Below are positions 13,350 through 29,972 of a stretch of DNA of 36,094 nt, in pieces. Position numbers and translations under genes: made by a program. Numbering within the stretch: position 1 is the first letter of the stretch; every line of letters begins with the position of its first letter. Location: positions 1 through 36,094 of the forward strand of contig JAEUPE010000033.1 of assembly GCA_016790435.1 (NCBI GenBank). The letters run 5' to 3'. The stretch is from Rubrivivax sp. (GTDB taxonomy: Bacteria > Pseudomonadota > Gammaproteobacteria > Burkholderiales > Burkholderiaceae_C). The notes under the pieces were generated by a model. The model made no database searches. It was not told the origin of the DNA and saw nothing but the letters and a program-made list of their open reading frames with translations.

Positions 13350-14474
13350 CTAGCGCACGAAGCGCCCTTCGTGGCTCACCTGCACCAGTTCGACGAAACG
13401 CGAGCCGGTGGCATCGCCGCTCGTGAAGTCGAGCGACATGCCGGCCAGCCGCAGCTTCAGCGCGCGCATCGTGGCGTGAAAGCGCGCGCGCGTGAGATCC
13501 CGTCCGCAACGGTTCAGCGCCTCCACCAGCACGCGCCCGTTGATGTAGCCCTCGAAGCTGTAGTAGCCGACGGGCACCTTGGCGGCTTCAGCGAGCTGCC
13601 GGTACTGCGCCACCAGCGCATCGGCCTGGCCCCACGGGTAGGGCACGACTTGCGAGATCGCGAGCCCGCGCGAGCGCGGGCCGGCCACCTTGAACACCAC
13701 CTCGCCGGCGACGATCGACATGCCGTAGAAGGAGGGGTACCAGCCCAGCGCCCAGCTGGCCTTCATCAACTCGCCCGGCAGCACGCCGCCCAGGTACATC
13801 AGCACTGCCTGCGGGCGGTCTGCCGAGAGCGCCTTGGCGGCCGCGGCCGCGTTGCTCGCATCGCCCTTCACGGCCGCCACCGCGGCCGGGGCGAGCCGGT
13901 GCAGCGCCAGCGCGGCGCCGATCAGCGCCTGCGCCTCCTGCCCGCCCGGGTTGTCGAGCACGGCCACGCCGATGCGCGTAATGCCGATCGTCACCAGGTG
14001 CTCCACGAGCGCCTGCGCTTCCCGCCCCGAGGTCGCGCGCAAGAAATAGGCAGCGCCCTTGACCTTGGCACGCGCCGAGTCGGCCACGGCGTAGCCGGCC
14101 AGCGCCGGCGCGCCGCTGGTCAACAGCAGCTCGGCCGTGGCCGCCGTGGTGGCCGAGCCCACGCAGCCGAAGAAGCCGAACACGCCTTCGCGTTCGAGCA
14201 GCTGGCGCACATTGGCCACCGCCTTGGGCGGCTGCAGTTCGTCGTCGAGCGAGACGATGCGCACGCGCCGGCCGTGCACGCCACCGGCGCGCGCCGCCTC
14301 GGCGAACGCGAGCTGCGCTCCGGTGACCATGACGTTGATCTGGTGGCCGAGCGGGCCGCTCAGGATGCCCGTCTGGCCGAACACCACCTCGTCATTGCCG
14401 ACGCCGGCTTGAGCGCGCACTCTGGGCACGAAGGCCGCGCCGGCGGCCAGGGACACGATCTGTCTGCGCTTCAC
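13350..14474 (-). CDS. ABC-type periplasmic binding protein (Peripla_BP_6), orphan
   Basis: 374 residues of the branched-chain amino acid/amide binding protein type. The N-terminal signal begins MKRRQIVSLAAGAAFVP with cleavage after RAQA, and the twin arginine plus alanine-rich core makes a Tat signal possible. Mature features are VVFGQTGILSGPLG, the ligand-pocket region FGFFGCVGSATTAA, and VPYPWGQADALVAQY near the hinge. The GTG start at 14474 has a GAGGGGGAGG RBS. It lies 49 bases after the aminopeptidase gene on the same strand. No permease or ATPase gene is nearby, so it either serves a transporter encoded elsewhere or works as a sensor ligand-binder, like its paralogues at 18034 and 21899. 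The ligand cannot be read from the sequence. Confidence 0.85.
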   Translation of the reverse strand: MKRRQIVSLAAGAAFVPRVRAQAGVGNDEVVFGQTGILSGPLGHQINVMVTGAQLAFAEAARAGGVHGRRVRIVSLDDELQPPKAVANVRQLLEREGVFGFFGCVGSATTAATAELLLTSGAPALAGYAVADSARAKVKGAAYFLRATSGREAQALVEHLVTIGITRIGVAVLDNPGGQEAQALIGAALALHRLAPAAVAAVKGDASNAAAAAKALSADRPQAVLMYLGGVLPGELMKASWALGWYPSFYGMSIVAGEVVFKVAGPRSRGLAISQVVPYPWGQADALVAQYRQLAEAAKVPVGYYSFEGYINGRVLVEALNRCGRDLTRARFHATMRALKLRLAGMSLDFTSGDATGSRFVELVQVSHEGRFVR

Positions 14475-15649: not shown

Positions 15650-17842
15650 TCAATCTGCAGCAGCCGCGACGGCCGAGCCGCCACCGGCCACGGGCACGGC
15701 GGCGGGGTCCGCGGCGCGCTCCACCTGCACGAGGCAGTCGTAGAACGAAGGCGCGCGGCCGATGTCGGTGAGGCGCTGGTGCGTCAGCTGGTTGACGTTG
15801 GTGCCGTCGCGGCCGTACTTTCGCCACCACACGCCCAGGCCGTGCACCACGCCGGGCCGCGCCCGCGCATGGCGCCCGGCGCCACCGCCCTTGCCGCCGC
15901 CACTGCCGCCGCCATCACCCACCACGGCGCGCGCCAGCGTGCGGCCGCGGTCGTTGAAGATGCTCACCAGGTCGCCGTCGGCAATGCCGCGCGCGGCAGC
16001 GTCGCCCTCGTGCATCTCGAGCACCGGTTCGCCCTCGGCGGCGCGCAGGCTCGGCACATTGACGAAGCTGGAGTTGAGGAAATTGCGCGCCGGCGGCGAG
16101 ATCATCGCCAGCGGGTAGCGCGCGGCCAGTTCCGGCGAAGACAACAGGCTCTCGTAGTTGGGCACGTAATCGGGCACGCCGAGGCCCGGCGCGTCGACGA
16201 GCGCCTTGCCGCTGGGCGTCGGGAAATCGCCGTTGGCGAAAGGCGCCTCGCCGATGGCCAGCCGGCTCCAGCCCTTGCGGCCGAGCTCGTCGAGCTTGAC
16301 GCGCGAGGGGTCGAAGGCACCGAGCGCCATCGTCTCGTCGCTGTCGTCGAAACACGGCTCGGTGAAGCCCATGCGGCGCGCCAGCTGGCGGAAGACCTCG
16401 GCGTTCGAGCGCGCCTGGCCGAGCGGCGCGATGGCCGGGCGGTTGAGCATGGCGTAGACATGCCCGTAGGCACCGTGCGCGTCCCAGTGCTCGAGCTGCG
16501 TGGTGGCCGGCAGCACGTAGTCGGCATGGTCGGCGGTGTCGGTGAGGAAGTGCTCGAGCACGACGGTGAAGAGGTCCTCGCGCGCGAAGCCTCGCGCCAC
16601 CTTGGCGCTCTCGGGCGCCACGGCCACCGGGTTGCTGTTGTAGACCACCACCGCCTCGACGCGCGGGCCGAACGCGGGCGAGCTCTCACGCAGCAGGTCG
16701 TCGCCGATGGTGCTCATGTTGATGGTGCGCGGGCGGCGGCCTTCGGCAGGCGGCCCGTAGACGGATTCCAGTAGGTCGGGCCGCTGCAGCCAGCCGTCGC
16801 GCCGCGCGCCGCGGAACCAGCCGCTCGCCGACAGCAGCATCCCGCCGGCGCGATGCCGCCAGGCGCCCACCAGGCAGGGCAGCAGCGCAATCAAGCGCAC
16901 GGCGTTGCCGCCGCCGTGCACGCGCTGCATGCCGTAGTTGAGGCGGATGGCCGCCGGCCGCGCGCTGCCGTACTCGCGCGCCAGCTCGACGATGACGCCG
17001 GCGTCGATGCCGCACACCGCCGCCGCGCGCTCGGGCGTCCAGGCGAGCGCGCGTTCGCGCAGCTTCTCGAAGCCTTCGACGTGGCGCTCGATGTAGTCGT
17101 GGTCGAGCCGGTCGTGCCGGATCAGCTCGTGCATCAGGGCCAGCGCCAGCGCGCCGTCCGCGCCCGGCAGCAGGGCGATGTGCTGGTGGCACTTCTCCGC
17201 CGTCTCGCTGCGGCGCGGGTCGATGCAGACCAGCCGAGCCCCGGCGCGCTTGGCCTGCTGCGCGTAGTTCCAGAAGTGCACGCTGCTCGTGATGGGGTTG
17301 CTGCCCCAGATGAGGATCAGCCGGCTCTCGGCGAAGTGCTCGACGTGCATGCCGACCTTGCCGCCGTAGGTGGCCGCGAGCGCCTCCCCGCCGGCGTTGG
17401 AGCAGATGGTGCGGTCGAGGAAGCTCGCTCCGAGCCGGTGCCAGAAGCGCGCCGCCATGCCCTCGCCCTGCACGAGGCCCATGGTGCCGGCGTAGCTGTA
17501 AGGCAGGATGGCCTGCGGGTCGCGCGCGGCGATGGACTTCAGCCGCGCGGCGATGTCGTCGAGGGCCTCGTCCCAACCCACCGGCTCGAAGCGCCCCAGG
17601 CCGTTGCTTCCACCTTTCGGCCCCACACGCTTCAGCGGCGTGAGCACCCGCTCCGGGTGATAGGTGCGCTCGGCATAGCGGCTGACCTTGGTGCACAGCG
17701 CGCCGTGCGTCGTCGGATGTTCGGGATCGCCGGCCACGCGCACGACGCGCCCTTCACTCACCGTGACATGCAGGGCGCAGGTGTCCGGGCAGTCGTGCGG
17801 GCACACCGCCTGCACGACACGTGACGAAGGCGAAAGGGTCAT
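15650..17842 (-). CDS. Molybdopterin-dependent oxidoreductase (DMSO reductase superfamily, 4Fe-4S)
   Basis: 730 residues. The N-terminal 4Fe-4S motif CPHDCPDTC begins near residue 14, and its fourth Cys sits about 27 residues later (GALCTKVSRY). Further blocks typical of the superfamily are WDEALDDIAARL, ILIWGSNPITSSVHFW, ARLVCIDPRRSETAEKCHQH and DYVLPATTQLEHWDAHGAYG, with a C-terminal MopB_CT barrel containing NDRGRTLARAVVG. There is no Tat signal, so it is probably cytosolic. A glycine-rich insert (DGGGSGGGKGGGAG) interrupts the C-terminal barrel. The ATG at 17842 matches the family start; an upstream extension to 18007 would cross the promoter region. The substrate (an S- or N-oxide, formate or other) cannot be assigned. 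It is the first gene of the leftward block, and the aminopeptidase follows immediately. Confidence 0.85.
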   Translation of the reverse strand: MTLSPSSRVVQAVCPHDCPDTCALHVTVSEGRVVRVAGDPEHPTTHGALCTKVSRYAERTYHPERVLTPLKRVGPKGGSNGLGRFEPVGWDEALDDIAARLKSIAARDPQAILPYSYAGTMGLVQGEGMAARFWHRLGASFLDRTICSNAGGEALAATYGGKVGMHVEHFAESRLILIWGSNPITSSVHFWNYAQQAKRAGARLVCIDPRRSETAEKCHQHIALLPGADGALALALMHELIRHDRLDHDYIERHVEGFEKLRERALAWTPERAAAVCGIDAGVIVELAREYGSARPAAIRLNYGMQRVHGGGNAVRLIALLPCLVGAWRHRAGGMLLSASGWFRGARRDGWLQRPDLLESVYGPPAEGRRPRTINMSTIGDDLLRESSPAFGPRVEAVVVYNSNPVAVAPESAKVARGFAREDLFTVVLEHFLTDTADHADYVLPATTQLEHWDAHGAYGHVYAMLNRPAIAPLGQARSNAEVFRQLARRMGFTEPCFDDSDETMALGAFDPSRVKLDELGRKGWSRLAIGEAPFANGDFPTPSGKALVDAPGLGVPDYVPNYESLLSSPELAARYPLAMISPPARNFLNSSFVNVPSLRAAEGEPVLEMHEGDAAARGIADGDLVSIFNDRGRTLARAVVGDGGGSGGGKGGGAGRHARARPGVVHGLGVWWRKYGRDGTNVNQLTHQRLTDIGRAPSFYDCLVQVERAADPAAVPVAGGGSAVAAAAD

Positions 17843-18033: not shown

Positions 18034-19170
18034 ATGCGCAACCAATTCCTCGCCATCCCCGCCGCCGTCGCGCTGGCCTTCGCGCTCACCGCGCAAGCCC
18101 AGGACGGCATCTCCGCCGCAGAGATCCGGATCGGCATGGTCAACGTGCAGACCGGCCCCGCCTCGGGCCTGGGCAAGGGCATGCGCAGCGGCGCCGAGGC
18201 CGTCTTCAGCGCCGTCAACGCCAAGGGCGGTGTCAACGGCCGCAAGATCTCGCTGCTCGTCGGCGACGACGGCTACGAGCCGGACAAGGCGGTGGACGAG
18301 ACGCTCAAGATGATCGAGCAGAGCAAGGTCTTCTCGCTCTTTGGCTACGTCGGTACGCCCACGGCCAACGCCGTGCTGCCGATCGTCAAGGAAATGGACG
18401 TGCCGCTGGTCGGCGCCTTCACCGGCGCCATGAGCCTGCGCCAGCCGGTCACCAAGCAGGTGTTCAACGTGCGCGCCAGCTACGACGACGAGGCCGAGGC
18501 ACTGGTGGCGCACTTCCTCGCCAACGGCGCCAAGACCGTGGCGGTGTTCTACCAGGACGACGGCTTCGGCCTCGCGGTGCTCTCGGGCACCGAGAAGGCG
18601 CTGAAGAAGCGCAACATGCAGATCGCCGCCAAGGGCACCTTCCAGCGCAACACGCTCGCCATCAAGGGCGGCATGGCCGCCATGCTCGAGGCCAAGCCCG
18701 ACGCGGTGGTGATGGTCGGCACCTACGCGCCGCTGGCCGCCTTCATCAAGGAGGCGCGCGCCGCCGGCCTCAAGTCGCAGCTCGCCACGGTGAGCTTCGT
18801 CGGCACCGACAACCTCGTGGCGCAGGTCGGCAAGGACGGCGACGGCGTGCTCATCTCCCAGGTTGTGCCCTTCCCGGCCGACGACGACATCGCCGTCACG
18901 CGCGAGTGCCGCGAGGCCGTCAAGGCGCACAGCGGCGAGGCGCTCGGCTTCGTCAACTTCGAGGGCTGCATCACGGCCAAGGTGATGGTGGCCGCGCTCG
19001 AGCGCGCCGGCAAGGACCCGAGCCGCGAAGGGCTGGTCGGCGCGCTACGCGGCATGCAGGGCGTCGATCTCGGCGGCATGCGCGTCGGCTTCGCGGCCGA
19101 CAACCACCAGGCTTCCAACAGCGTCTTCATGACGCAGATCCGCGACGGCCGCATCGCCAAGCTGAAGTGA
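18034..19170 (+). CDS. ABC-type periplasmic binding protein (Peripla_BP_6) upstream of a chemoreceptor
   Basis: 378 residues. A clean Sec signal, [20 protein letters not shown], ends at AQA-QDG. The mature domain starts [20 protein letters not shown] and contains [34 protein letters not shown] in the ligand cleft, and [11 protein letters not shown], standard for amino acid/amide-type binding proteins. The ATG at 18034 follows AGGAGA. A methyl-accepting protein gene starts 79 bases downstream and a paralogue of this protein follows that gene; no permease or ATPase is present. A FliA-like promoter lies upstream. I infer that it presents its ligand to the neighbouring chemoreceptor; a transport role with an unlinked transporter is the alternative. 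Confidence 0.88.
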
Positions 19171-19249
19171 GCCGGGCTCACCCAGGATCGAGCCGTGCTC
19201 CTGCGCGCGCGCAGGGCGCGGCCCGGCCCGACGCCAAGGTGAAGATGCC

Positions 19250-21691
19250 ATGAAGATCTCCCATCGCCTGATCGCCCTGTCGGCCCTCTCCGGCGCCGGC
19301 CTCGCCTGCGTGGCGGCGGTGAGCTACTTCGCCGTCACGTCGATCCAGAGCGACCTGCAGGGCCTCACGACGCAGGCGGCGCCGCTGCAGGCGCGCACGC
19401 TGGAGTTGCAGGAGCGCAGCGAGCGCCTGATGGGCTCGCTGCTGCGACTGAGCCACGCGCGCACGGCCGATGAACTGCAGAAGGTGACCGAGGCGGCCTC
19501 GGCCGACCTGCAGCGCATCGCCAAGCTGCGTGACGAGATCCGCGCCCTCGACCCGAAGGCCGGCTCATCCGCCGGCGGGCCGGGCGGCGAGTTCGCCGCT
19601 GCGCACGAGCAGATCGCTGCCGCCGCGCGGCGCCGCCTCGCCGACGACGCCGCCTACCGCGGCGAGACCGAGTCGGCGCGAGCGGCGCTGGCGAAGGCCG
19701 AGCAGCAGATCGGCGCCACGCGCCAGTCGGTCAACGGCATCGGCGTCGAAGCCGGCACCTCCGCCGACAAGGCGCAGGACGCGGCGCGGCGCCTGGCCAC
19801 GCAGGCCAAGCTGGCGCTGAAGGCCCAGACACTGTTGAAGGACGTGGCGCTCGTCGTCCACGAAGTCGACGTCGCGAGCAACCGCTTCCGTCTCACGCCG
19901 CTGCGCGAGAAGATGAAGGCGCCGCTGGACAGCATCCAGCGCCTGGAGGTGGGCGGGACCGGCGCCACCGGCGCGGCGGCCACCGGCGACGACCCGCTCA
20001 AGGAGGCGCGCGCCGCCACCGGCAAGCTGTGGGAGCTGGCGACGCGCGAAGGCGACGGCCTCTTCGCGCAACGAGCGAAAGCGCTTGCCAAGGCCGAAGG
20101 GGGCGAGGCCGCCTATGTCGTGCAGCGCAAGGCCCTCGTCGCGCTCATCGACGAGCAGGTGACACGCCTGTCGGCGCTTGCTGACACGCTGGAGGTGCAA
20201 AGCGTCAAGCAGCGCCAGGTGCTCGAGGCGGCACTCAAGCTGCGCAACGAGCCCGGTGGCGTCGTCGCCACGAGCGAGGCGGTGGCGCTCGCCATCCGCG
20301 ACATGGGCGCCGGCCTGCGGCAGCTCATGCTGGCTGCCGATGCCAAGGAGCTGCAGGCCACGCACCATGGGCTGAGCAAGCGCGGCGAGGCACTGGTGCA
20401 GGAGATGAAGGCGATGCGCGCCGGCCTCGTCAAGATGGGCCGGCCCCAGCTCGCCATGCAGGTGGACGCCGCGCTGGCCGCGATGGCCGTCGTCACCGCC
20501 TCGGTCGAGAAGGTCTCGGCCAGCCGCCAGGGCCTGCTCGCCAGCGAGACGGCGATGTCGCAGTCGCTCGCGCAGCTCAAGGCCGTGGCCGCGCGCCAGG
20601 CCGAGATCGGCGAGCGCCAGATCAAGTCGGCCGGCGAGCGCCAGACCGAGGTGAGCGCCGCCGTGGACCGCCGCGTCGCCTGGTCGCTGTGGATGATCAT
20701 CGGCATCTCGGTCGCCGCCATCGGCGTCATCGGCGCGCTCAGCTGGCATACGGTGCGCGGCGTGACGCGACGCCTGAACGCGGCGGTCGAGGTGGCCGAG
20801 CAGGTGTCGCGCGGCAACCTCTATGCCATTCCAGAGGCCAACGGCAGCGACGAAACGGCGCGCCTGCTCGCCGCACTCGCCGGCATGGTCGGCACGCTCA
20901 AGGGCATCGTCGCCGACATCCAGGGCGCGGCGAACGAGATCGACGTCGGCGCGCGCGAGATCAGCCGCGGCAACCAGGACCTGAGCCAGCGCACCGAGCG
21001 CCAGGCGAGCGCGCTGCAGCAGACGGCCGCGTCGATGGAGGAGCTGGGCACCACGGTGCAGCAGAACGCCGACCACGCGCGTCAGGCCAACGAACTGGCG
21101 GCCGGTGCCTCGGGCGTGGCCGAACGCGGCGGCCAGGTGGTGAGCGCGGTGGTGCAGAAGATGCAGGGCATCAGCGCCAGCAGCGCGAAGATCGCCGAGA
21201 TCATCGGCACCATCGACGCCATCGCCTTCCAGACCAACATCCTGGCGCTCAACGCCGCCGTCGAGGCGGCGCGCGCCGGTGAGCAGGGGCGCGGCTTTGC
21301 CGTTGTCGCCGGCGAGGTCCGCGGCCTCGCACGCCGCTCGGCCGAGGCAGCGCAGGAGATCAAGGGCCTCATCGGCGCCAGCGTGGAGCAGGTGGCCGAT
21401 GGCGCGAAGCTCGTCGACCAGGCCGGCGCCACGATGCAGGAGATCGTGAGCGCCACCCAGCGCGTGACGGCCATCATGCGCGAGATCAGCGGCGCCAGCG
21501 TCGAGCAGAGCAGCGGCGTCGCGCAGGTGGGCCAGGCGGTGCAGCAGATGGACCAGGGCACGCAGCAGAACGCGGCACTCGTCGAGCAGTCGGCCGCCGC
21601 CGCGCTGAGCCTGCAGCAGCAGGCTCAGCAGCTCACCCGCGCCGTGGCCGTGTTCAAGCTCGATCGCGAAGAGTCGGCCGTCGCGGCCTGA
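19250..21691 (+). CDS. Methyl-accepting chemotaxis protein with very large helical periplasmic region
   Basis: 813 residues. TM1 is at about 6-31 and TM2 ([20 protein letters not shown]) at about 478-500, leaving a periplasmic part of roughly 440 residues that is Ala/Gln/Leu-rich and predicted helical. That is about three times a 4HB domain. HAMP follows ([20 protein letters not shown]), then the MCP signalling domain with [20 protein letters not shown] and the hairpin region [20 protein letters not shown]. The C-terminus ([12 protein letters not shown]) has no NWETF-like CheR/CheB tether. The ATG at 19250 has an AAGG-type RBS. It sits between two periplasmic binding protein paralogues, which points to indirect ligand sensing through them. 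It controls the flagellar motor via CheA/CheW encoded elsewhere. Confidence 0.92.
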
Positions 21692-21699
21692 GCGGCGCA

Positions 21700-21737
21700 C
21701 GGCCCGCAGCGGGCCGCTTGCCGTGCCCGCGGGGCAC
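21700..21737 (+). terminator. Candidate hairpins after the chemoreceptor gene
   Basis: Two adjacent GC stems follow the stop codon at 21691: CGGCCCGC next to GCGGGCCG, and GTGCCC-GCG-GGGCAC at 21723-21737. Neither is followed by a T-run, so termination or mRNA 3' protection is possible but unproven. The rest of 21692-21898 has no gene. Confidence 0.35.
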
Positions 21738-21898
21738 CGGGCAATCCCTAGAACCGCGCCCGCCGCGGGGCCCGAAGGCGGCCCCGCGAATGCGCGTCCC
21801 CCCTCTTCGCCCGTGCGCCACTTTGGCACTAGTCTCGGGATTGCAAGGCGCGCCTCCGCGCCACAGCGGCCGCGACCCGATCGGCCGCCACGAAGAAC

Positions 21899-23029
21899 AT
21901 GTCCAATCGACGCCATGCGCTCAGGCATCTGGGCGTGCTTGCCGCAGCGACGCTGGCCACGCCGGCGCTGGTCGCGCAGGAGTTGCGCGGCCGCATCGTG
22001 CTCGGCCAGTCGGCCGCGCTCACCGGGGCGGCTGCGCAACTCGGTTTGCAATTCCAGGCCGGCGCGCGCCTCTATTTCGCGCGCCTCAACACGCGTGGCG
22101 GCATCAACGGCCGCGCCGTCGAGCTGAAGAGCCTGGACGATGGCTACGAGCCCGACCGTTGCGCGCGCAACACGCGCCAGCTCATCGAGGAGGGCGCCGC
22201 GGCGCTGTTCGGCTTCATCGGCACGCCCACTTCGCTGGCCGCGCTGCCCATCGCCACCGCGGCGAGGATGCCCTTCATCGCCCCCTTCACCGGCGCACAG
22301 GCGCTGCGCGAGCCGTTCAACCGCTACGCCTTCCACGTGCGCGCCTCGTACTTCGACGAGACGGCGCGCATCGTCAACCAGCTCACCAGCGTGGGCATGA
22401 AGAACATCGCCGTCTTCCACCCGAACGACAGCTACGGCCAGGCCGGACTCGCCGGCGTCGTGCGCGCGCTCGAGCAGCAGAAGAGCAAGCCGGTCGTCAC
22501 GGCGACGGTGGAGCGCAACTCGGTGGACGTGGCGGCCGCGGTGAAGACCATCGTCGCCGCGCGCCCCGAGGCCGTGGTGCAGATCAGCGCCTACAAGAGC
22601 TGCGCCGCCTTCGTGCGCGAGGCGCGCAAAGCCGGCTTCGGCGGCCAGTTCTACAACGTCTCGTTCGTCGGCACGGCGGCGCTGGCGCAGGAACTGGGCG
22701 CGGAGGCGCGAGGTGTCGTCATCAGCCAGGTGATGCCGTTCCCGTTCTCGGGCACGACACCCATCGCCGGCGAGTTCCTCGCCGCGGCCGCGGGCTCCAA
22801 CGTCGACATCAACTACAGCAGCATGGAAGGCTTCGTCGCCGCCAAGTCGGTGGTCGAGGCGCTGCGCCGCAACGGCGGCGCCGGCGGCGAGGCGCTCGTC
22901 GCCTCGCTCGAGGGGCTGCGTGACTTCAACCTCGGCGGCTTCTACGTCGACTTCAGCCCGACCAAGCACGCAGGCTCGAACTTCGTCGAGCTCACGATCC
23001 TGGGCGCCGACGGGCGCGTGCGCCGTTGA
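21899..23029 (+). CDS. ABC-type periplasmic binding protein (Peripla_BP_6), second paralogue
   Basis: 376 residues closely related to the product at 18034. Shared blocks are GGINGRAVELKSLDDGYEPD, LFGFIGTPTSLAALP, FHVRASYFDETARIV and QVMPFPFSGTTPIAG. The N-terminus MSNRRHALRHLGVLAAATLA has twin arginines and an Ala-rich core ending ALVA-QE, so a Tat or Sec signal is possible. The ATG at 21899 has only a weak purine-rich RBS. It follows the chemoreceptor by 207 bases. Pocket differences from the first paralogue suggest a related but different ligand. No transporter genes are adjacent, so a chemotaxis or other sensing role is plausible. Confidence 0.88.
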   Translation: MSNRRHALRHLGVLAAATLATPALVAQELRGRIVLGQSAALTGAAAQLGLQFQAGARLYFARLNTRGGINGRAVELKSLDDGYEPDRCARNTRQLIEEGAAALFGFIGTPTSLAALPIATAARMPFIAPFTGAQALREPFNRYAFHVRASYFDETARIVNQLTSVGMKNIAVFHPNDSYGQAGLAGVVRALEQQKSKPVVTATVERNSVDVAAAVKTIVAARPEAVVQISAYKSCAAFVREARKAGFGGQFYNVSFVGTAALAQELGAEARGVVISQVMPFPFSGTTPIAGEFLAAAAGSNVDINYSSMEGFVAAKSVVEALRRNGGAGGEALVASLEGLRDFNLGGFYVDFSPTKHAGSNFVELTILGADGRVRR

Positions 23030-23229: not shown

Positions 23230-23709
23230 ATGTCCCCCTCTGCGTTGGTCGGCGCGCCCATGGCGGCGCGCCGTGGCTTCACCATCATCGAACTCGGCCT
23301 GGTGCTCGCGCTGCTGGGCGTGCTGATGGGCCTGGCCATCCCCGCCTGGAGCGGCTGGAAGGACAAGGCGCGCACGAAGCAGGCCACCGAGGACATCATC
23401 AGCATCAGCGTCGTCATCGACCAGCATCTCGCCGACACCGGCACGCTGCCCGCCGACCTCGCGGCCATCAGCCGCGGCGGGCTCAAGGACCCCTGGGGCA
23501 ATGGCTACGAGTACTTGCCGCTGATCGGCGTGAAGGGCAACGGCAAGGCGCGCAAGGATCACTCGCTCGTGCCGCTGAACAGCGACTACGACTTGTACAG
23601 CAAGGGGCCGGACGGCGCCTCGGTGGGCCCGCTCACGGCCAAGGCAAGCCGAGACGACATCCTGCGCGCCAACAACGGGCGCTTCGTCGGCCCGGCCTCG
23701 ATGTACTAG
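23230..23709 (+). CDS. Orphan GspG-like pseudopilin (prepilin-type N-terminus)
   Basis: 159 residues. The prepilin peptidase site RRG-FTIIELG is followed by the hydrophobic helix LVLALLGVLMGLAIPAW. The C-terminal part has DPWGNGYEYLPL and DLYSKGPDG, the conserved GspG elements, the latter part of its calcium loop. GspG is the major pseudopilin of type II secretion, but no other gsp or pil gene is in this window. The start is ambiguous between ATG 23230 (16-residue leader) and ATG 23260 (a 6-residue leader more usual for pilins). The stop is TAG. The GGDEF-EAL gene begins 26 bases later, so the two are likely cotranscribed. It could also be a minor pilin-like surface protein. Confidence 0.8.
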   Translation: MSPSALVGAPMAARRGFTIIELGLVLALLGVLMGLAIPAWSGWKDKARTKQATEDIISISVVIDQHLADTGTLPADLAAISRGGLKDPWGNGYEYLPLIGVKGNGKARKDHSLVPLNSDYDLYSKGPDGASVGPLTAKASRDDILRANNGRFVGPASMY

Positions 23710-23735: not shown

Positions 23736-26570
23736 ATGTCGCGCCTCCAAGGCCTGCAGCGCCTGGCCGGCCTCCACTTCTTTCTCGACAGCCGCATCGC
23801 GCGGCGCATCTTCCGCGTGCTGCTCGTCGCGGCACTGCTGCCGACGGCACTCGCCGGCGGACTCATCTACAGCACCTTCGAGGCGCGCGAGGAAGCGCAG
23901 GCACGCCGCGAGGCCAAGGTGCGCCTCAAGCAGATGGGGCTGCGGCTGTTCGACCGCCTCGACGCGGCGCGCACGACCCTCGCCGTGCATGCCGCCGGCT
24001 CCGACTGGCGCGTGCCGCCGGTGCTGGAGTCACGTGGCCGCATGCACCTGATCGGCGTGCGCACGGTGGCCGCGGACGCGATGCCCACGGCGCCGCCGCC
24101 ACTCTCTTGGCAAGAGCCCGCGCCGCAGCGCACGCGCGAAGCCAGGCCTGAAGGCCTGCGCGACGCTGCACGCGCCGGCACGCGGGCCACCACGCCGACG
24201 GCCGTCGTGCAGCTGGCCGTGCGCGACCGGTCCGGCAAAGCCTGGTGGCTGGCCGAGGTGGCCCCGGAGTACCTCTGGTCCGACTTCCGCGGCGACGGCG
24301 CCGGCGCCGGCCTGTGTGTGCTCGGGCCCGGCGGGGAGCGGCTGTTCTGCCCGCTCGGCCCGCCCGACGCTGCGGCCGACGCGGCCGAGTGGCGGCTCTT
24401 CATGGGCGGTGAGTTCGAGGCCGCGGACTGGCGCATCGTCGGGCCGCGCCTCGCACCCCGTGTGGACGAGGCGGGCGAAGGCGACGGCACGCCGCTGGCG
24501 CGCCTGGTGGCGTTGACGCTCGCCGGCACGCTGATCCTCGCTGCGCTGCTCGGGCTGGCCATGGTGCGCCGCACGCTGGTGCCGCTGGAGCGGCTGACGG
24601 CGGGCACGCGCGCCCTGGCGCAAGGCGACCACGCCGCACGCGTCGACCTGCCGCCGGGCGACGAGTTCGGCGAGCTGGCCACTTCGCTCAACGGCATGGC
24701 GGCGCGCATCGAGCGCCAGATCTCGGCGCTGGAGGTGCAGGCGGCCGTGGACCGCAAGATCCTCGACGGCGCGCCGCTGGAGATCATCTTCAGGCGCGTG
24801 CTCGCACGCCTGGCGCAACTGGCGCCCGGCGCGCACGTGGCCATCATCGCGCGCGACGTGGCCAGTGGCGAGTGGCGCCTGCACGGCAACGACCCCGCGC
24901 ACGCGCCGCAAACCCTGGCCCCGCCCGATGACGCCTGGCAGACCAGCGCCGACGGCCTCGCCGGCCATTGCCTGCTCGCCGCCGACACGCCGCCCTGGCT
25001 GCAGCGCGCCTTCTTCCTGGCCAGCGGCCGCACGCCACCGGCCGGCGCCGCGTTGTGCTGGGTGCCGGCGCTCTGGCGCGACGAGCCGGTGGCGCTGCTG
25101 CTGGTGTGCGCTCCGGCACGCCTCGCGCTCGACGCTGCCGGTGCGCAAGAGGTGGAGACGCTGCGCGACCGCGTCGCCATCGCGCTCGCGGCCGCGGCGC
25201 GCGAGCACCACCTGGTCGAACGGGCCGTGCGCGACAACCTCACCGGGCTGCTCAACCGCAACGGCCTGCACGACGCCTGCGACCAGCGGCTGGCGGCGCC
25301 GGCGCCGGCCGAGCCGCCGGCCCCCTTCAACGTGCTGCTCATCGACCTCGACGGCTTCAAGGAGGTCAACGACACGCTCGGGCATCCGGTCGGCGACGCC
25401 GTGCTGCGCGCCGTGTCCGACCGCCTGGGCAGCCGGCTGCCCGCCGGCGCCACGCTGGCGCGCGTGGGCGGCGACGAGTTCGTCGTGCTGCAGCCTGCGG
25501 CCAGCGAGGCCGCCGAGTCGCTGGCCGAGACGCTGTGCAACCTCGTGGCGCAGCCGATCTCGCACCGCGAGCACGTCGTGCACCTGGGCGCAAGCGTCGG
25601 CATCGCCAGCCATCCGGCAGACGCCACCGACCGCGACGAGCTGCTGCGCCGGGCCGACGTGGCGATGTACGCCGCCAAGGCCGCCGGGCGCGGCCGCTGG
25701 CGCCGTTATGCCGACACCATGGACGCGCAGGCCACCGAGCGCGCCTGGATCACGCGCGAGCTGCGCGCCGCGCTCGAGCGTGGCACCGAGACCCCGCTCG
25801 AGCTGCACTACCAGCCACGCGTCGATCCGCGCGACGGCCACGTCAGCTCCACCGAGGCCCTCGTGCGCTGGACCCATCCCGAGCGCGGCGCCATTGCGCC
25901 CATGCGCTTCGTCCCGGTGGCCGAGGAGACCGGCCTCATCGACCGGCTGGGCGCCTTCGTCCTGCATGCCGCCCTGGCGCAGCAGCGCCGCTGGCGCGAC
26001 GCCGGGGTTGCCAGCGGCCGCGTGGCCGTGAACGTGTCGGCGCGCCAGTTGCGCGACCCCGGTTTCACCAGCGCCGTGCTGGCGGCCTTGCAGCGGCATG
26101 GCCTGCAGCCCGCCGACCTGGAGCTGGAGATCACCGAGAGCCTCTTCGCCGGCGACGCCTCCAGCGTGCAGCGCGCCCTGCAGCCGCTGCGCGAACAAGG
26201 CGTGTGGGTGGCGCTGGACGACTTCGGCACCGGCTACTCGTCGCTGTCGGCGCTGCAGAGCCTGCCCATCGACGTGCTGAAGATCGACCGCAGCTTCGTC
26301 ATCGAGCTCGGCGTGCGCGACAGCGCGCAGGCCGTCGTGCGCTCGATCATCGCGTTGGCGCGCGCGCTGGGCAAGCGCGTGGTCGCCGAGGGCGTGGAGA
26401 CGGCCGAGCAGGAGCGGCAGCTTCTGGCACTGGGCTGCGACGAGTTCCAGGGCTACCTGTATGCGCGGCCGCTGCCGCCCGCACCGTTCGAGGCCCGCGT
26501 GGCCGCGGGCTTTGCCAATGCACCTGCAGCGCCGGCCATGCACGACGGCCAGGCCCTGGTCACGGCCTGA
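23736..26570 (+). CDS. Membrane GGDEF-EAL protein (dual cyclic-di-GMP enzyme domains)
   Basis: 944 residues. TM1 is at about 24-46, a periplasmic region runs to about 255, and TM2 is at about 257-277. HAMP follows (LVPLERLTAGTRALAQGDHA, about 280-335), then a GAF-like region (about 345-485) and GGDEF, whose active motif GGDEF at 578-582 is intact. The EAL domain carries EALVRW (707-712), LEITESLF, ALDDFGTGYSS and VAEGVETAEQ. Both catalytic motifs are intact, so synthase and phosphodiesterase activities are both possible; no RxxD inhibitory site precedes GGDEF at the usual spacing. The ATG at 23736 is the first Met before the family N-terminus. It is probably in an operon with the pseudopilin. 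It likely adjusts motility or surface attachment in response to a periplasmic signal. Confidence 0.92.
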   Translation: MSRLQGLQRLAGLHFFLDSRIARRIFRVLLVAALLPTALAGGLIYSTFEAREEAQARREAKVRLKQMGLRLFDRLDAARTTLAVHAAGSDWRVPPVLESRGRMHLIGVRTVAADAMPTAPPPLSWQEPAPQRTREARPEGLRDAARAGTRATTPTAVVQLAVRDRSGKAWWLAEVAPEYLWSDFRGDGAGAGLCVLGPGGERLFCPLGPPDAAADAAEWRLFMGGEFEAADWRIVGPRLAPRVDEAGEGDGTPLARLVALTLAGTLILAALLGLAMVRRTLVPLERLTAGTRALAQGDHAARVDLPPGDEFGELATSLNGMAARIERQISALEVQAAVDRKILDGAPLEIIFRRVLARLAQLAPGAHVAIIARDVASGEWRLHGNDPAHAPQTLAPPDDAWQTSADGLAGHCLLAADTPPWLQRAFFLASGRTPPAGAALCWVPALWRDEPVALLLVCAPARLALDAAGAQEVETLRDRVAIALAAAAREHHLVERAVRDNLTGLLNRNGLHDACDQRLAAPAPAEPPAPFNVLLIDLDGFKEVNDTLGHPVGDAVLRAVSDRLGSRLPAGATLARVGGDEFVVLQPAASEAAESLAETLCNLVAQPISHREHVVHLGASVGIASHPADATDRDELLRRADVAMYAAKAAGRGRWRRYADTMDAQATERAWITRELRAALERGTETPLELHYQPRVDPRDGHVSSTEALVRWTHPERGAIAPMRFVPVAEETGLIDRLGAFVLHAALAQQRRWRDAGVASGRVAVNVSARQLRDPGFTSAVLAALQRHGLQPADLELEITESLFAGDASSVQRALQPLREQGVWVALDDFGTGYSSLSALQSLPIDVLKIDRSFVIELGVRDSAQAVVRSIIALARALGKRVVAEGVETAEQERQLLALGCDEFQGYLYARPLPPAPFEARVAAGFANAPAAPAMHDGQALVTA

Positions 26571-26626: not shown

Positions 26627-27817
26627 ATGAACCTGATCGAGCCCATCCTCGCCGACGCCGCGACCATCGCCGCCATGCGCCGCGACATCCACGCCCATCC
26701 GGAGCTCTGCTACGAGGAGAACCGCACCGCCGACGTGGTGGCCAAGGCGCTGACCGACTGGGGCATCCCCGTGCACCGGGGCCTGGGCAAGACCGGCGTC
26801 GTCGGCATCGTCAAGAACGGCACCAGTTCGCGCGCCGTCGGCCTGCGCGCCGACATGGACGCGCTGCCGATGACCGAGCACAACACCTTCGCGCATGCCA
26901 GCAAGCACGTGGGCAAGATGCACGCCTGCGGCCACGACGGCCACACCGCGATGCTGCTCGCCGCCGCCAAGCACCTGAGCAAACACCGCAATTTCGACGG
27001 CACCGTCTATCTCGTCTTCCAGCCGGCCGAAGAGGGCGGCGCCGGCGCGCGCGAGATGATCAAGGACGGCCTCTTCGAGAAGTTCCCGATGGAGGCGATC
27101 TTCGGTGCGCACAACTGGCCCGGCTACAAGGTCGGCACCTTCGGCGTCAGCGCCGGGCCGATGATGGCCTCGGGCAGCATCTTCACCCTCACGGTGCGCG
27201 GCAAGGGCTCGCACGCGGCGCTGTCGTACCTGGGCGTCGACCCGGTGCCGGTGGCCTGCCAGATCGTCATGGCCTGGCAGACCATCGTCAGCCGCAACCT
27301 GCGCGCCATGGAAGCCGCGGTCATCTCGGCGACGATGATCAACGCCGGCGAGGCCTTCAACGTCATTCCCGACTCGGCCAGCATCAAGGGCACGGTGCGC
27401 ACGCTCAGCAACGAGGCCGTGTTGCTGATCGAGCAGCGCATGCGCGAGGTGGCCGAGGGCATCTGCGCCGCGCACGGCGCGACCTGCGAGTTCGAGTTCA
27501 ACCGCGGCTACCCGGTGACGGTGAACCACGTCGCCGAGACCGAGTTCGTCAAGCGCGTGCTCGGCGACGTCGTCGGCGCGGCCAACGTGATGCCCTTCGA
27601 GCCCGTGCTGGCGAGCGAGGACTTCAGCTTCTTCCTGCAGGCCAAGCCCGGCTGCTACTTCATGATCGGCAACGGCGACGGCGCCCACCGCGAGCACGGC
27701 CACGGCATCGGGCCGTGCACGCTGCACAACCCGAGCTACGACTTCAACGACGACCTCATCCCGCTCGGCGCCACGGCGTGGGTGCGGATTGCCGAGAGCT
27801 GGCTGCAACCGAAGTGA
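26627..27817 (+). CDS. M20-family amidohydrolase (hippurate hydrolase-like)
   Basis: 396 residues of the M20D aminoacylase/amidohydrolase family, which removes N-acyl groups from amino acids or related amides. The first metal-site region is MHACGHDGHTAML (Cys101, His103), then FQPAEEGGAGA near 131-141 with the catalytic Glu, FGAHNWPGYKVGTFG, the dimerisation domain from about 180, and late residues ASEDFSFFLQAKPG and HNPSYDFND completing the site. The ATG at 26627 has an AGGAAG RBS; an ATG at 26597 would add ten unsupported residues. There is no signal peptide, so it is cytosolic. It sits between the GGDEF-EAL gene and a converging chemoreceptor. Its product could generate the amino acids that neighbouring receptors sense, but that is speculation. 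Confidence 0.92.
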   Translation: MNLIEPILADAATIAAMRRDIHAHPELCYEENRTADVVAKALTDWGIPVHRGLGKTGVVGIVKNGTSSRAVGLRADMDALPMTEHNTFAHASKHVGKMHACGHDGHTAMLLAAAKHLSKHRNFDGTVYLVFQPAEEGGAGAREMIKDGLFEKFPMEAIFGAHNWPGYKVGTFGVSAGPMMASGSIFTLTVRGKGSHAALSYLGVDPVPVACQIVMAWQTIVSRNLRAMEAAVISATMINAGEAFNVIPDSASIKGTVRTLSNEAVLLIEQRMREVAEGICAAHGATCEFEFNRGYPVTVNHVAETEFVKRVLGDVVGAANVMPFEPVLASEDFSFFLQAKPGCYFMIGNGDGAHREHGHGIGPCTLHNPSYDFNDDLIPLGATAWVRIAESWLQPK

Positions 27818-27890: not shown

Positions 27891-29444
27891 TCAGGCCGTC
27901 TGGAACACTGACAGCGAGTTGCGCAGGCCCTGCGTCTGCGTGCTGAGCGACTGCGTCGCCGCGGCCGCCTGCTCGACGAGGGCGGCGTTCTGCTGGGTCG
28001 TCGAGTCCATGCTGGTGATGACCTCGCTCACCTGGGCCATGCCGCTGGCCTGCTCGCCGGTCTCGCGGGCGATGTCCTCCATCACGCGCGAGACGTTCTC
28101 GACCGCATTCACCACCTCGTGGATGATCTTGCCGGCGGCCTGCACCTGCTCGGCGCCGGCGTGAGCCTGTTCCACGGAGGTCTGGATGAGACCGCGGATC
28201 TCCTTGGCCGCCCCGGCGCTGCGCGCAGCCAGGGCCCGCACCTCCTGCGCCACCACCGCGAAACCGCGGCCCTGCTCGCCGGCGCGCGCGGCCTCGACGG
28301 CCGCATTCAGCGCCAGCAGGTTGGTCTGGAACGACAGGCCGTCGATGACCGCGATGATCTCGCCGATGCGCTTGGACTGCGTGTTGATGCGGTCCATGGC
28401 GGCCACCGCTTCGCCCATCACCGTGCCGCCGTCCCGGGCCTTGCCGGAGGTGGTCCTGGCCAGGTCGTTGGCGTGGAGCGCCGCCTCGTTGCTGCGGCGC
28501 ATGCGGGCGAAGAGTTCGTCCACCGTCGAGGCGGTGCGTTGCAGCGAGGCGGCGGTCTGCTCGGTGCGCGCCGAGAGGTCCATGTTGCCGGCGGCAATCT
28601 CGGCCGAGGCGCCGTCGATCTGCAGCGCCGCCTGCTGCACGCCGCCGAGCAGCGCATTGAGGCGAGCCGACAGGCCGGCCATGGCCACGAGCACCTGGCC
28701 GGTCTCGTCGGTGCGGTCGACGTCGACCATCTGGCGCAGGTCGCCCGAAGCGACCTCCTGCGCGATGCGCACGGCCTCGCGCAGGGGCTCCTTGATCATG
28801 CGCACGCACAGCCAGATGACCAGGGCACTGATGACCAGCGCGCACAGCAGGACCGTGAGCGCCAGCGTGTCGGCCCGGGCCATGGCCTGGATCGCCTCTT
28901 CGGCCTGGCCCGACGACCGCGTCACGACCAGCGCCGAGAGCTCGTCCACGGCCTTCTCGAGCTTGCCGTGCGCCGCCTCGGCCGAGGTCATCATCATCGC
29001 GGCCTGGGCAAGCCCACCCGACTTCATCTCGATCGTGTCCTTGGCGGAACGCGAGAAGTCCACAAGGACTCGCTCGATGGCCTCGAAGCGCGGCTTGAGG
29101 TCAGGCGTCGCCGCCGCCTTCAGCTGCCCGACCTGCTCGGCGAAGGCGGTGAACTCCTGCGCGATCGACTTGTCCAGCGCCTCGATGCGCTTGGCCTTCA
29201 TGCCCGCACCCTCGTAGGCGAGGCTGCGCATGACCATGGCATCGAGCTTGGCGGTGCGCGTCTTCAACTGGGCCAGTGCCGCCAGGTCCGGCAGTCCGCG
29301 CTGGCTCAGTTCGTGCAGCGCCGACCCCGCCTGCTGGTTGCCGAACCAGCCGACGCCGGCCACGATGAGCAGGCAGACGATGACGAACAGAGGTGCCATC
29401 AGCACCTTGACGGCGATGGGCAGGTTGACCAGCAGCTTCTTCAT
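27891..29444 (-). CDS. Methyl-accepting chemotaxis protein (4HB-type sensor domain)
   Basis: 517 residues, typical for a 4HB chemoreceptor. TM1 (about 12-33) begins [19 protein letters not shown], a periplasmic four-helix region spans about 34-190, and TM2 is [20 protein letters not shown] (about 193-214). HAMP and a complete MCP domain follow ([20 protein letters not shown], then [20 protein letters not shown]); the C-terminus is short (SVFQTA) without a tether pentapeptide. The ATG at 29444 has a weak RBS. It lies 63 bases downstream of a secreted Cache protein on the same strand, with a GC hairpin between, so they probably share a transcript and a ligand. It signals through CheA/CheW encoded elsewhere. 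Confidence 0.92.
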
Positions 29445-29507: not shown

Positions 29508-29972
29508 TCAGCGATAGACGCCGACACCGACGAACATGTCGGCGCCCGGGACCCGCTGGATGAAGGCGGACTTGTCCTCGATCTTCTTCGAGACCGGGTG
29601 CGCCCACTCGTAGTCGACCCAGCCGGCGCCGGTCTTGGCCGCCAGGGCCACCATCTCCTTGCCGAACTCCTTGCCCGACGCGTCCTTCACGTCCAGCGAG
29701 TTGCGGCCCATCAGCTTGTCGCTGATGTGGAAGCGCATCACGCCGCCGAACTCCATGACGAAGGGGTACAGGTCCTTGGGCATCCAGCGCTTGCGGTCAG
29801 CGGCGAAGTCCTTCGCTGCCTGCTCGAGACCGACCTTCTTGATGTGGGCGACAGCGGCGTCGTTGAGCGCGCGGGCCTCTTCCTTCGAGCCCCGTTCCTG
29901 GGCGAAGGCGGGTTGGAGCAGGGCTGCGCCGAGCAGGGCGGCGGCGAGGAAGGAGCGGCGGACGATGGACAT
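29508..29972 (-). CDS. Secreted single-Cache-domain protein
   Basis: 154 residues with a Sec signal (SFLAAALLGAALLQPAFA, cleavage before QERG). The mature part is one small Cache-type sensor domain. Helical KEEARALNDAAVAHIKKVG comes first, then DLYPFVMEFGGVMRFH, LMGRNSLDVKDASGKEFG, GAGWVDYEWAHPVSKKIEDK and VGVGVYR at the end, as in sCache_2-type proteins. It has no membrane segment or signalling domain of its own, so it is a free periplasmic ligand binder. The ATG at 29972 has a TGGAGG RBS. It is the first gene of a minus-strand unit with the chemoreceptor, downstream of a FliA-like promoter. The likely role is ligand capture for that receptor; family ligands are often organic or amino acids, but the ligand here is unknown. 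Confidence 0.85.
   Translation of the reverse strand: MSIVRRSFLAAALLGAALLQPAFAQERGSKEEARALNDAAVAHIKKVGLEQAAKDFAADRKRWMPKDLYPFVMEFGGVMRFHISDKLMGRNSLDVKDASGKEFGKEMVALAAKTGAGWVDYEWAHPVSKKIEDKSAFIQRVPGADMFVGVGVYR

Follow-up and report, generated by a model that had tools for sequence, protein, structure and literature searches.

The window, a stretch of 36,094 nucleotides, comes from a Rubrivivax MAG (host genome G000; 5.39 Mb in 302 contigs, 81% complete). Its central part contains, all on the plus strand, a binding-protein gene (SBP1), a chemoreceptor gene (MCP) and a second binding-protein gene (SBP2). The relevant features are the following.

13350..14474, minus strand: SBP3, Peripla_BP_6 (Pfam, 145 bits), between PHA-granule and aminopeptidase genes
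15650..17842, minus strand: molybdopterin oxidoreductase (Pfam); left flank of the usual SBP2 locus, here of SBP1-MCP
18034..19170, plus strand: SBP1, Peripla_BP_6 (Pfam PF13458, 223.7 bits), with a Sec-type signal peptide
18907..18969, plus strand: Cys292-Cys312 codons of SBP1 (from residue counts among homologues)
19250..21691, plus strand: chemoreceptor (MCP), 813 aa, with TM1, periplasmic ligand-binding domain (LBD), TM2, HAMP and MCP signalling domain (Pfam, hydropathy)
19346..20674, plus strand: LBD, predicted all-helical, about 440 aa, MCP residues 33-475 (Pfam, alignments, structure model)
21092..21556, plus strand: MCP signalling domain, the output module, replaced in relatives (Pfam)
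21899..23029, plus strand: SBP2, Peripla_BP_6 of a separate clade (Pfam, 177.1 bits)
23230..23709, plus strand: T2SSG-like pilin, between SBP2 and M20 (Pfam/NCBIfam)
23736..26570, plus strand: HAMP-GGDEF-EAL protein, between SBP2 and M20 (Pfam/NCBIfam)
26627..27817, plus strand: M20 amidohydrolase, right flank of the usual SBP2 locus (Pfam)

The gene order is thus molybdopterin oxidoreductase, SBP1, MCP, SBP2, pilin, GGDEF-EAL protein, M20. The SBP1, MCP and SBP2 open reading frames and their assignment as Peripla_BP_6 proteins and an MCP agreed with an earlier note on this DNA, and the third Peripla_BP_6 member that it had listed was recovered as SBP3. The latter is 28% identical to SBP1 and 31% to SBP2, and has no link to the receptor. 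The signal peptide of SBP1 was read from the sequence by eye. The receptor is a methyl-accepting chemotaxis protein: hydropathy showed two TM segments, and the signalling domain (residues 615-769, 169.4 bits) follows them and a HAMP domain (residues 502-551), whose Pfam score of 22.9 bits lies slightly under the cut-off of 25.

The host genome contains 25 Peripla_BP_6, 18 MCPsignal and three CheW-domain matches. Because of the first of these numbers, three Peripla_BP_6 genes in one window are weak evidence when taken alone. To judge from the sequence comparisons described below, it is the conserved pairing of SBP1 with the LBD that stands above chance, rather than the three Peripla_BP_6 genes lying together.

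The window also encodes a stand-alone Cache protein of 154 aa (sCache_2/dCache_2, 29508-29972, minus strand) just upstream of a 4HB-type MCP (27891-29444, minus strand). All three such Cache matches of the host genome have an MCP signalling domain within about 1.1 kb, as measured by coordinates. Matches were present in 20 of 100 family genomes; with one locus taken from each of these, an MCP signalling domain was located at most 1.5 kb from the Cache domain in 17 of the 20 loci, some of these being Cache domains fused to the MCP. The 154-aa protein may represent a second kind of detached sensor.

Occurrence and outputs of the SBP1-LBD gene pair

Among 399 family genomes the LBD was found in four, the host included, in searches that scored at most four or five candidates per genome and could therefore have missed some; a search of the order with the LBD profile detected the host genome only, of 399. 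All three of the other family genomes (L053, L054 and L055) have an SBP1 orthologue, 72-81% identical, directly upstream of the LBD gene. A wider sample was obtained by scanning named genomes with two peptide patterns from the SBP1 alignment; 80 of the 93 confirmed loci were kept, and these include the same three genomes (as L078, L082 and L080, respectively). A homologous LBD was encoded directly downstream of the SBP in 42 of the 80 loci, 41 of which were called by tblastn and one (L114, Planctomycetota) by the LBD profile (E 4.8e-14). The L114 reading frame stops at the contig end and is without a recognised output domain. Presence of the LBD followed the identity of the SBP to SBP1: it was found in 42 of the 44 loci at 52% or more and in none of the 36 below 50%. 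The two exceptions, L095 and L097, have the SBP without the LBD, and no LBD was found in their genomes. The distance between the SBP and receptor genes had a median of 46 nt and ranged from -4 to 123 (41 loci plus the window; gene borders in the relatives are approximate, since a simple gene-calling script was used). SBP1 and its receptor are therefore spaced as in an operon.

Most LBD-linked loci belong to Burkholderiales; the others are from Gammaproteobacteria, Nitrospirota, Geobacteraceae, Sericytochromatia and Planctomycetota. Outside Burkholderiales all members except Pinirhizobacter soli (L093) are MAGs, so each of these MAG members might be mis-binned. One copy, L085 8663-14569 (Nitrospirae GWB2_47_37), consists of SBP1-MCP placed between a second MCP, which lies upstream and lacks an LBD match, and a downstream CheB-type protein; this copy therefore lies among chemotaxis genes. 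The SBP gene is conserved beside the receptor gene, as would be expected of an SBP-activated transmembrane receptor. Gene adjacency can mislead, as a passage in PMC11113362 points out.

The LBD-linked SBPs share a pair of cysteines. Cys292 was present in all 42 sequences (window plus 41 loci) and Cys312 in 41 of them, and the pair did not occur in any of 26 SBP2-type proteins (more than 55% identical to SBP2) or of 29 other SBP1 homologues (42% or more); SBP2 itself has no such pair. Twenty of the 120 alignment rows were left out of these counts, and three near rows were shown. The two residues possibly form a disulfide. LBD-linked L114 has neither cysteine, and L095 and L097, which are not LBD-linked, carry both. 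L114 was identified as LBD-linked after the SBP tree had been built and is not counted among the 42 linked sequences in the tree, the distance correlation and the cysteine counts.

Downstream of the LBD the receptors differ. Hybrid histidine kinases accounted for 24 of them, MCPs for 17 (window included) and a GGDEF-EAL protein for one. The receptors of L092 and L098 contain HAMP, HisKA, HATPase, REC and Hpt domains (Pfam), and the L092 kinase gene is followed by a gene for a PAS-GGDEF-EAL protein with two REC domains. In L082 (L054, genome G223) the SBP1 gene overlaps by 4 nt with a gene coding for LBD-HAMP-GGDEF-EAL. The L086 receptor, an MCP, is split into two reading frames, and the LBD tree was built without it.

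In the SBP tree the 42 linked SBPs (window plus 41 loci) were found on one side of a single branch with a support of 90, and those of Nitrospirota, Geobacteraceae and Sericytochromatia were inside it. This clustering is partly built in, because the loci were found through SBP1. The tree requires at least three changes of output; counting L114 adds one change, since it falls outside the branch and is separated from it by L095 and L097. The tree distances of SBP and LBD were correlated, with r = 0.92 for 41 pairs and 0.44 when MCP forms were compared with kinase forms; a high correlation is also expected from common descent alone. The sensing pair stays constant, and the output varies.

Transporter genes were looked for next to the pair. 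As the earlier note had maintained, the window is free of them: 23 window proteins were scanned against Pfam without a match to a permease or an ABC ATPase, and LivF/G/H/M references did not match the window. The three Peripla_BP_6 genes of the window leave 22 in the host genome, four of them on short contigs; the other 18 lie in the 17 stretches that were compared, 13 of which gave Liv-type permease or ATPase matches (two of the 13 being the sources of the references). Complete ABC operons around close homologues had been named as counter-evidence in that note; there was no LivH or LivM match within 5 kb in the 41 LBD-linked loci, some of whose contigs end closer than 5 kb, and weak ABC ATPase matches were seen in four of the 41.

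These data bear on the possibility that SBP1 is an ordinary transport SBP with its permease encoded elsewhere, and that the receptor shares SBP1 or is merely co-regulated with it. In E. coli transport and taxis use common binding proteins, and the many Peripla_BP_6 genes of the host, with Liv-type matches in 13 of the 17 stretches around others, would suit such an arrangement. We nevertheless consider it unlikely, because the constant partner in the 41 loci is the LBD receptor and not LivH or LivM, and because the pair persists in several phyla although its output is exchanged.

Similarity searches were also made against plasmids. The window LBD matched none, and a Burkholderia LBD matched one record, in which the SBP is annotated as an ABC transporter substrate-binding protein, the LBD-bearing protein as a response regulator and the neighbour as an EAL protein. 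Because genes are named in this way in that one annotated record, such cassettes may be under-recognised.

The ligand-binding domain

No Pfam model scored over its cut-off with the LBD. In comparisons of predicted structures the sensor domain of TorS was the best match, ranking first for both LBD models (3i9y, 3o1h/i/j), and the LBD is accordingly modelled as a sensor domain of the TorS fold. For the second model McpZ came within 2 Z of TorS, and it superposed poorly (rmsd 8.3 over 344 residues and 10.3 over 353). By sequence, membership in TorS or TorT was rejected. Searching the PDB with the N-terminal 477 residues of the receptor (phmmer) gave a ferritin as best match (E 0.18), and the LBD profile gave a trimeric autotransporter fragment (E 0.025) and no TorS. 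TorT was not among the 40 PDB sequences that matched SBP1, a Peripla_BP_6 protein, at E 0.001. The NCBIfam TorS model was not among the seven matches of the window MCP; with four kinase forms it scored 455-499 bits, under its cut-off of 676.5, the best stretch lying in the kinase part.

Since TorS docks a binding protein, TorT, the predicted fold is relevant to another explanation, namely direct binding of a small ligand by the LBD, as in the helical bimodular domain of McpS, with SBP1 only buffering or scavenging the ligand and not docking. The first place of TorS for both models, with McpZ close behind in the second, and the close pairing of the SBP1 and LBD genes make this explanation unlikely.

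An MCP of genome G1078 (L205 4133-10130) was found to carry a domain distantly related to the LBD (20% identical, profile E 2e-40). The gene of this MCP lies directly before a DctP-DctQ-DctM TRAP operon, and SBP1 is absent. Searched for in its own family, this receptor was found in one of four genomes, its own. G1078 breaks the strict pairing of SBP1 and LBD, yet it again sets an SBP beside the LBD. As this distant member adjoins a TRAP binding protein, docking of binding proteins may be a wider property of the LBD family.

SBP2 and its usual locus

The earlier note had described SBP2 as a close paralogue of SBP1. This was too strong: the two proteins are 38% identical and fall into separate clades of the tree, for which reason a recent duplication of SBP1 was also rejected as the origin of SBP2. 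SBP2 orthologues were detected in 178 of the 399 family genomes (E 1e-85 or better) versus four for the LBD, the two counts having been obtained with different E-value limits. Twenty SBP2 loci, hand-picked from the orthologue listing and mostly top matches, were inspected. In 14 of them the gene stands between those of the molybdopterin oxidoreductase (left) and the M20 hydrolase (right). None of the 20 contains the LBD, and the only MCP match, in L192, lies beyond M20. Three of the loci (L184, L187 and L188) have further SBP2-type copies beside SBP2, between the molybdopterin oxidoreductase and M20, with no transporter matches beside them.

Close relatives of the window separate the genes further. 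L073, whose SBP1 is 96% identical, has the order molybdopterin oxidoreductase, SBP1, MCP, M20, and thus no SBP2 at the locus. Genome G394 carries SBP1-MCP on contig C308, apart from SBP2, which occupies its usual locus on contig C284. SBP2 and the MCP therefore do not require each other. As to the SBP-MCP-SBP order, whose conservation the earlier note had proposed as one test, it is not unique to the window, but besides it was seen only in two Rubrivivax MAGs. One of them, L074, has the same whole order as the window; in the other, L075, two minus-strand reading frames lie between SBP2 and the pilin gene, and the stretch ends before M20.

The genes for the pilin and the HAMP-GGDEF-EAL protein are also present in L074 and L075, and are absent from the 20 SBP2 loci compared and from the L073 locus, which has SBP3 and lacks SBP2. 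The sensor part of the GGDEF-EAL protein, for which SBP2 or SBP3 was considered as a possible partner, matched neither Pfam nor the LBD. The SBP3 relative in L073 is 86% identical; in L075 there were only 29-31% matches to SBP3, at its own SBP1 and SBP2 genes, and the SBP3 position is hardly reached by the L074 contig.

The window locus is best read as an old SBP2 locus to which SBP1-MCP and the pilin-GGDEF-EAL genes have been added. SBP1, MCP and SBP2 are probably not one system, and a three-gene system was rejected on the order in L073, the distribution and loci of SBP2, and the separate clades. That a single MCP reads two ligands through SBP1 and SBP2 as interchangeable binders, which the earlier note had inferred and which the common protein family and the order shared by the window, L074 and L075 would favour, is very improbable in view of the clade and far wider occurrence of SBP2, its LBD-free loci, its lack of the cysteine pair, and the arrangements in L073 and G394. 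The accompanying suggestion that the binding proteins are dedicated to chemotaxis is supported for SBP1 in the sense of a binding protein serving a receptor rather than a transporter, with an LBD downstream in 42 of 80 loci and no Liv permease match within 5 kb in the 41 compared. SBP2, with its separate clade and its usual locus between molybdopterin oxidoreductase and M20, is judged to be a neighbour of the sensing pair.

Working model and related systems

Taken together, we think it likely that SBP1 and the MCP constitute a two-gene, binding-protein-dependent chemoreceptor, a portable cassette for which SBP2 is not needed. SBP1 would be exported and would bind a small ligand in the periplasm. 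According to PMC9602780, the predicted ligands of Peripla_BP_6 proteins are mostly branched-chain amino acids, and for this reason the ligand is most likely an amino acid or a similar small molecule. Loaded SBP1 would then dock on the long helical LBD, from which the signal would travel via TM2, HAMP and the MCP tip to CheA. Relatives carry SBP1 and the LBD with other output modules, either a hybrid histidine kinase whose gene is followed by one for GGDEF-EAL, or GGDEF-EAL itself. SBP2 would sit at the locus independently of SBP1-MCP.

A broader proposal, for which we see about equal weight on either side, is that SBP1 plus LBD is a portable sensing cassette whose SBP, once a transport protein, now serves signalling only. 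It would extend over about six phylum- or class-level lineages and at least three outputs (chemotaxis, phosphorelay with c-di-GMP, and direct c-di-GMP turnover), with the cysteine pair as the mark of most members and the LBD perhaps as a more general SBP dock. If SBP1 does serve signalling only, the family shows a transport protein becoming a dedicated periplasmic receptor subunit. With a ready receptor-SBP pair, SBP2 as a natural negative control and the exchanges of output, it can be tested directly how specific SBPs are for a single helical LBD. Most transmembrane receptors are without a known signal, and SBP-dependent activation is one of the reasons named in a passage of PMC11113362.

It is established in general that binding proteins can activate chemoreceptors, kinases and c-di-GMP enzymes (PMC9602780, PMC11113362). 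The general kind is therefore known, and SBP1-LBD is a variant of it for which no description, of the pair or of the family, was found in searches of open-licence papers. Two helical chemoreceptor LBDs may be compared with that of the window: McpZ of S. meliloti, with the poor superposition given above, and McpS of P. putida, which was crystallised with malate (2yfa). We know of no SBP pairing for either. Tar-MalE and similar cases are chemoreceptors that depend on binding proteins. Stimulation of an MCP through a periplasmic binding protein is common to them and to the model proposed here, but in the window the SBP gene is adjacent to the receptor gene and without a transporter.

Pairs of the NspS-MbaA type combine an SBP with a GGDEF-EAL receptor, as does L082; they are not known to share their SBP and LBD families with SBP1-LBD, and the output in the window is an MCP. 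This receptor class is mentioned in PMC11113362 and PMC9602780. The closest parallel in working mode would be TorT-TorS, the TMAO sensor made up of an SBP and a hybrid histidine kinase. Both systems join an SBP to a helical sensor domain, with matching predicted fold, and hybrid-kinase versions occur in the SBP1-LBD family; in the window, by contrast, the output is an MCP, and the LBD is about 440 aa long as compared with about 270 residues in the TorS crystals.
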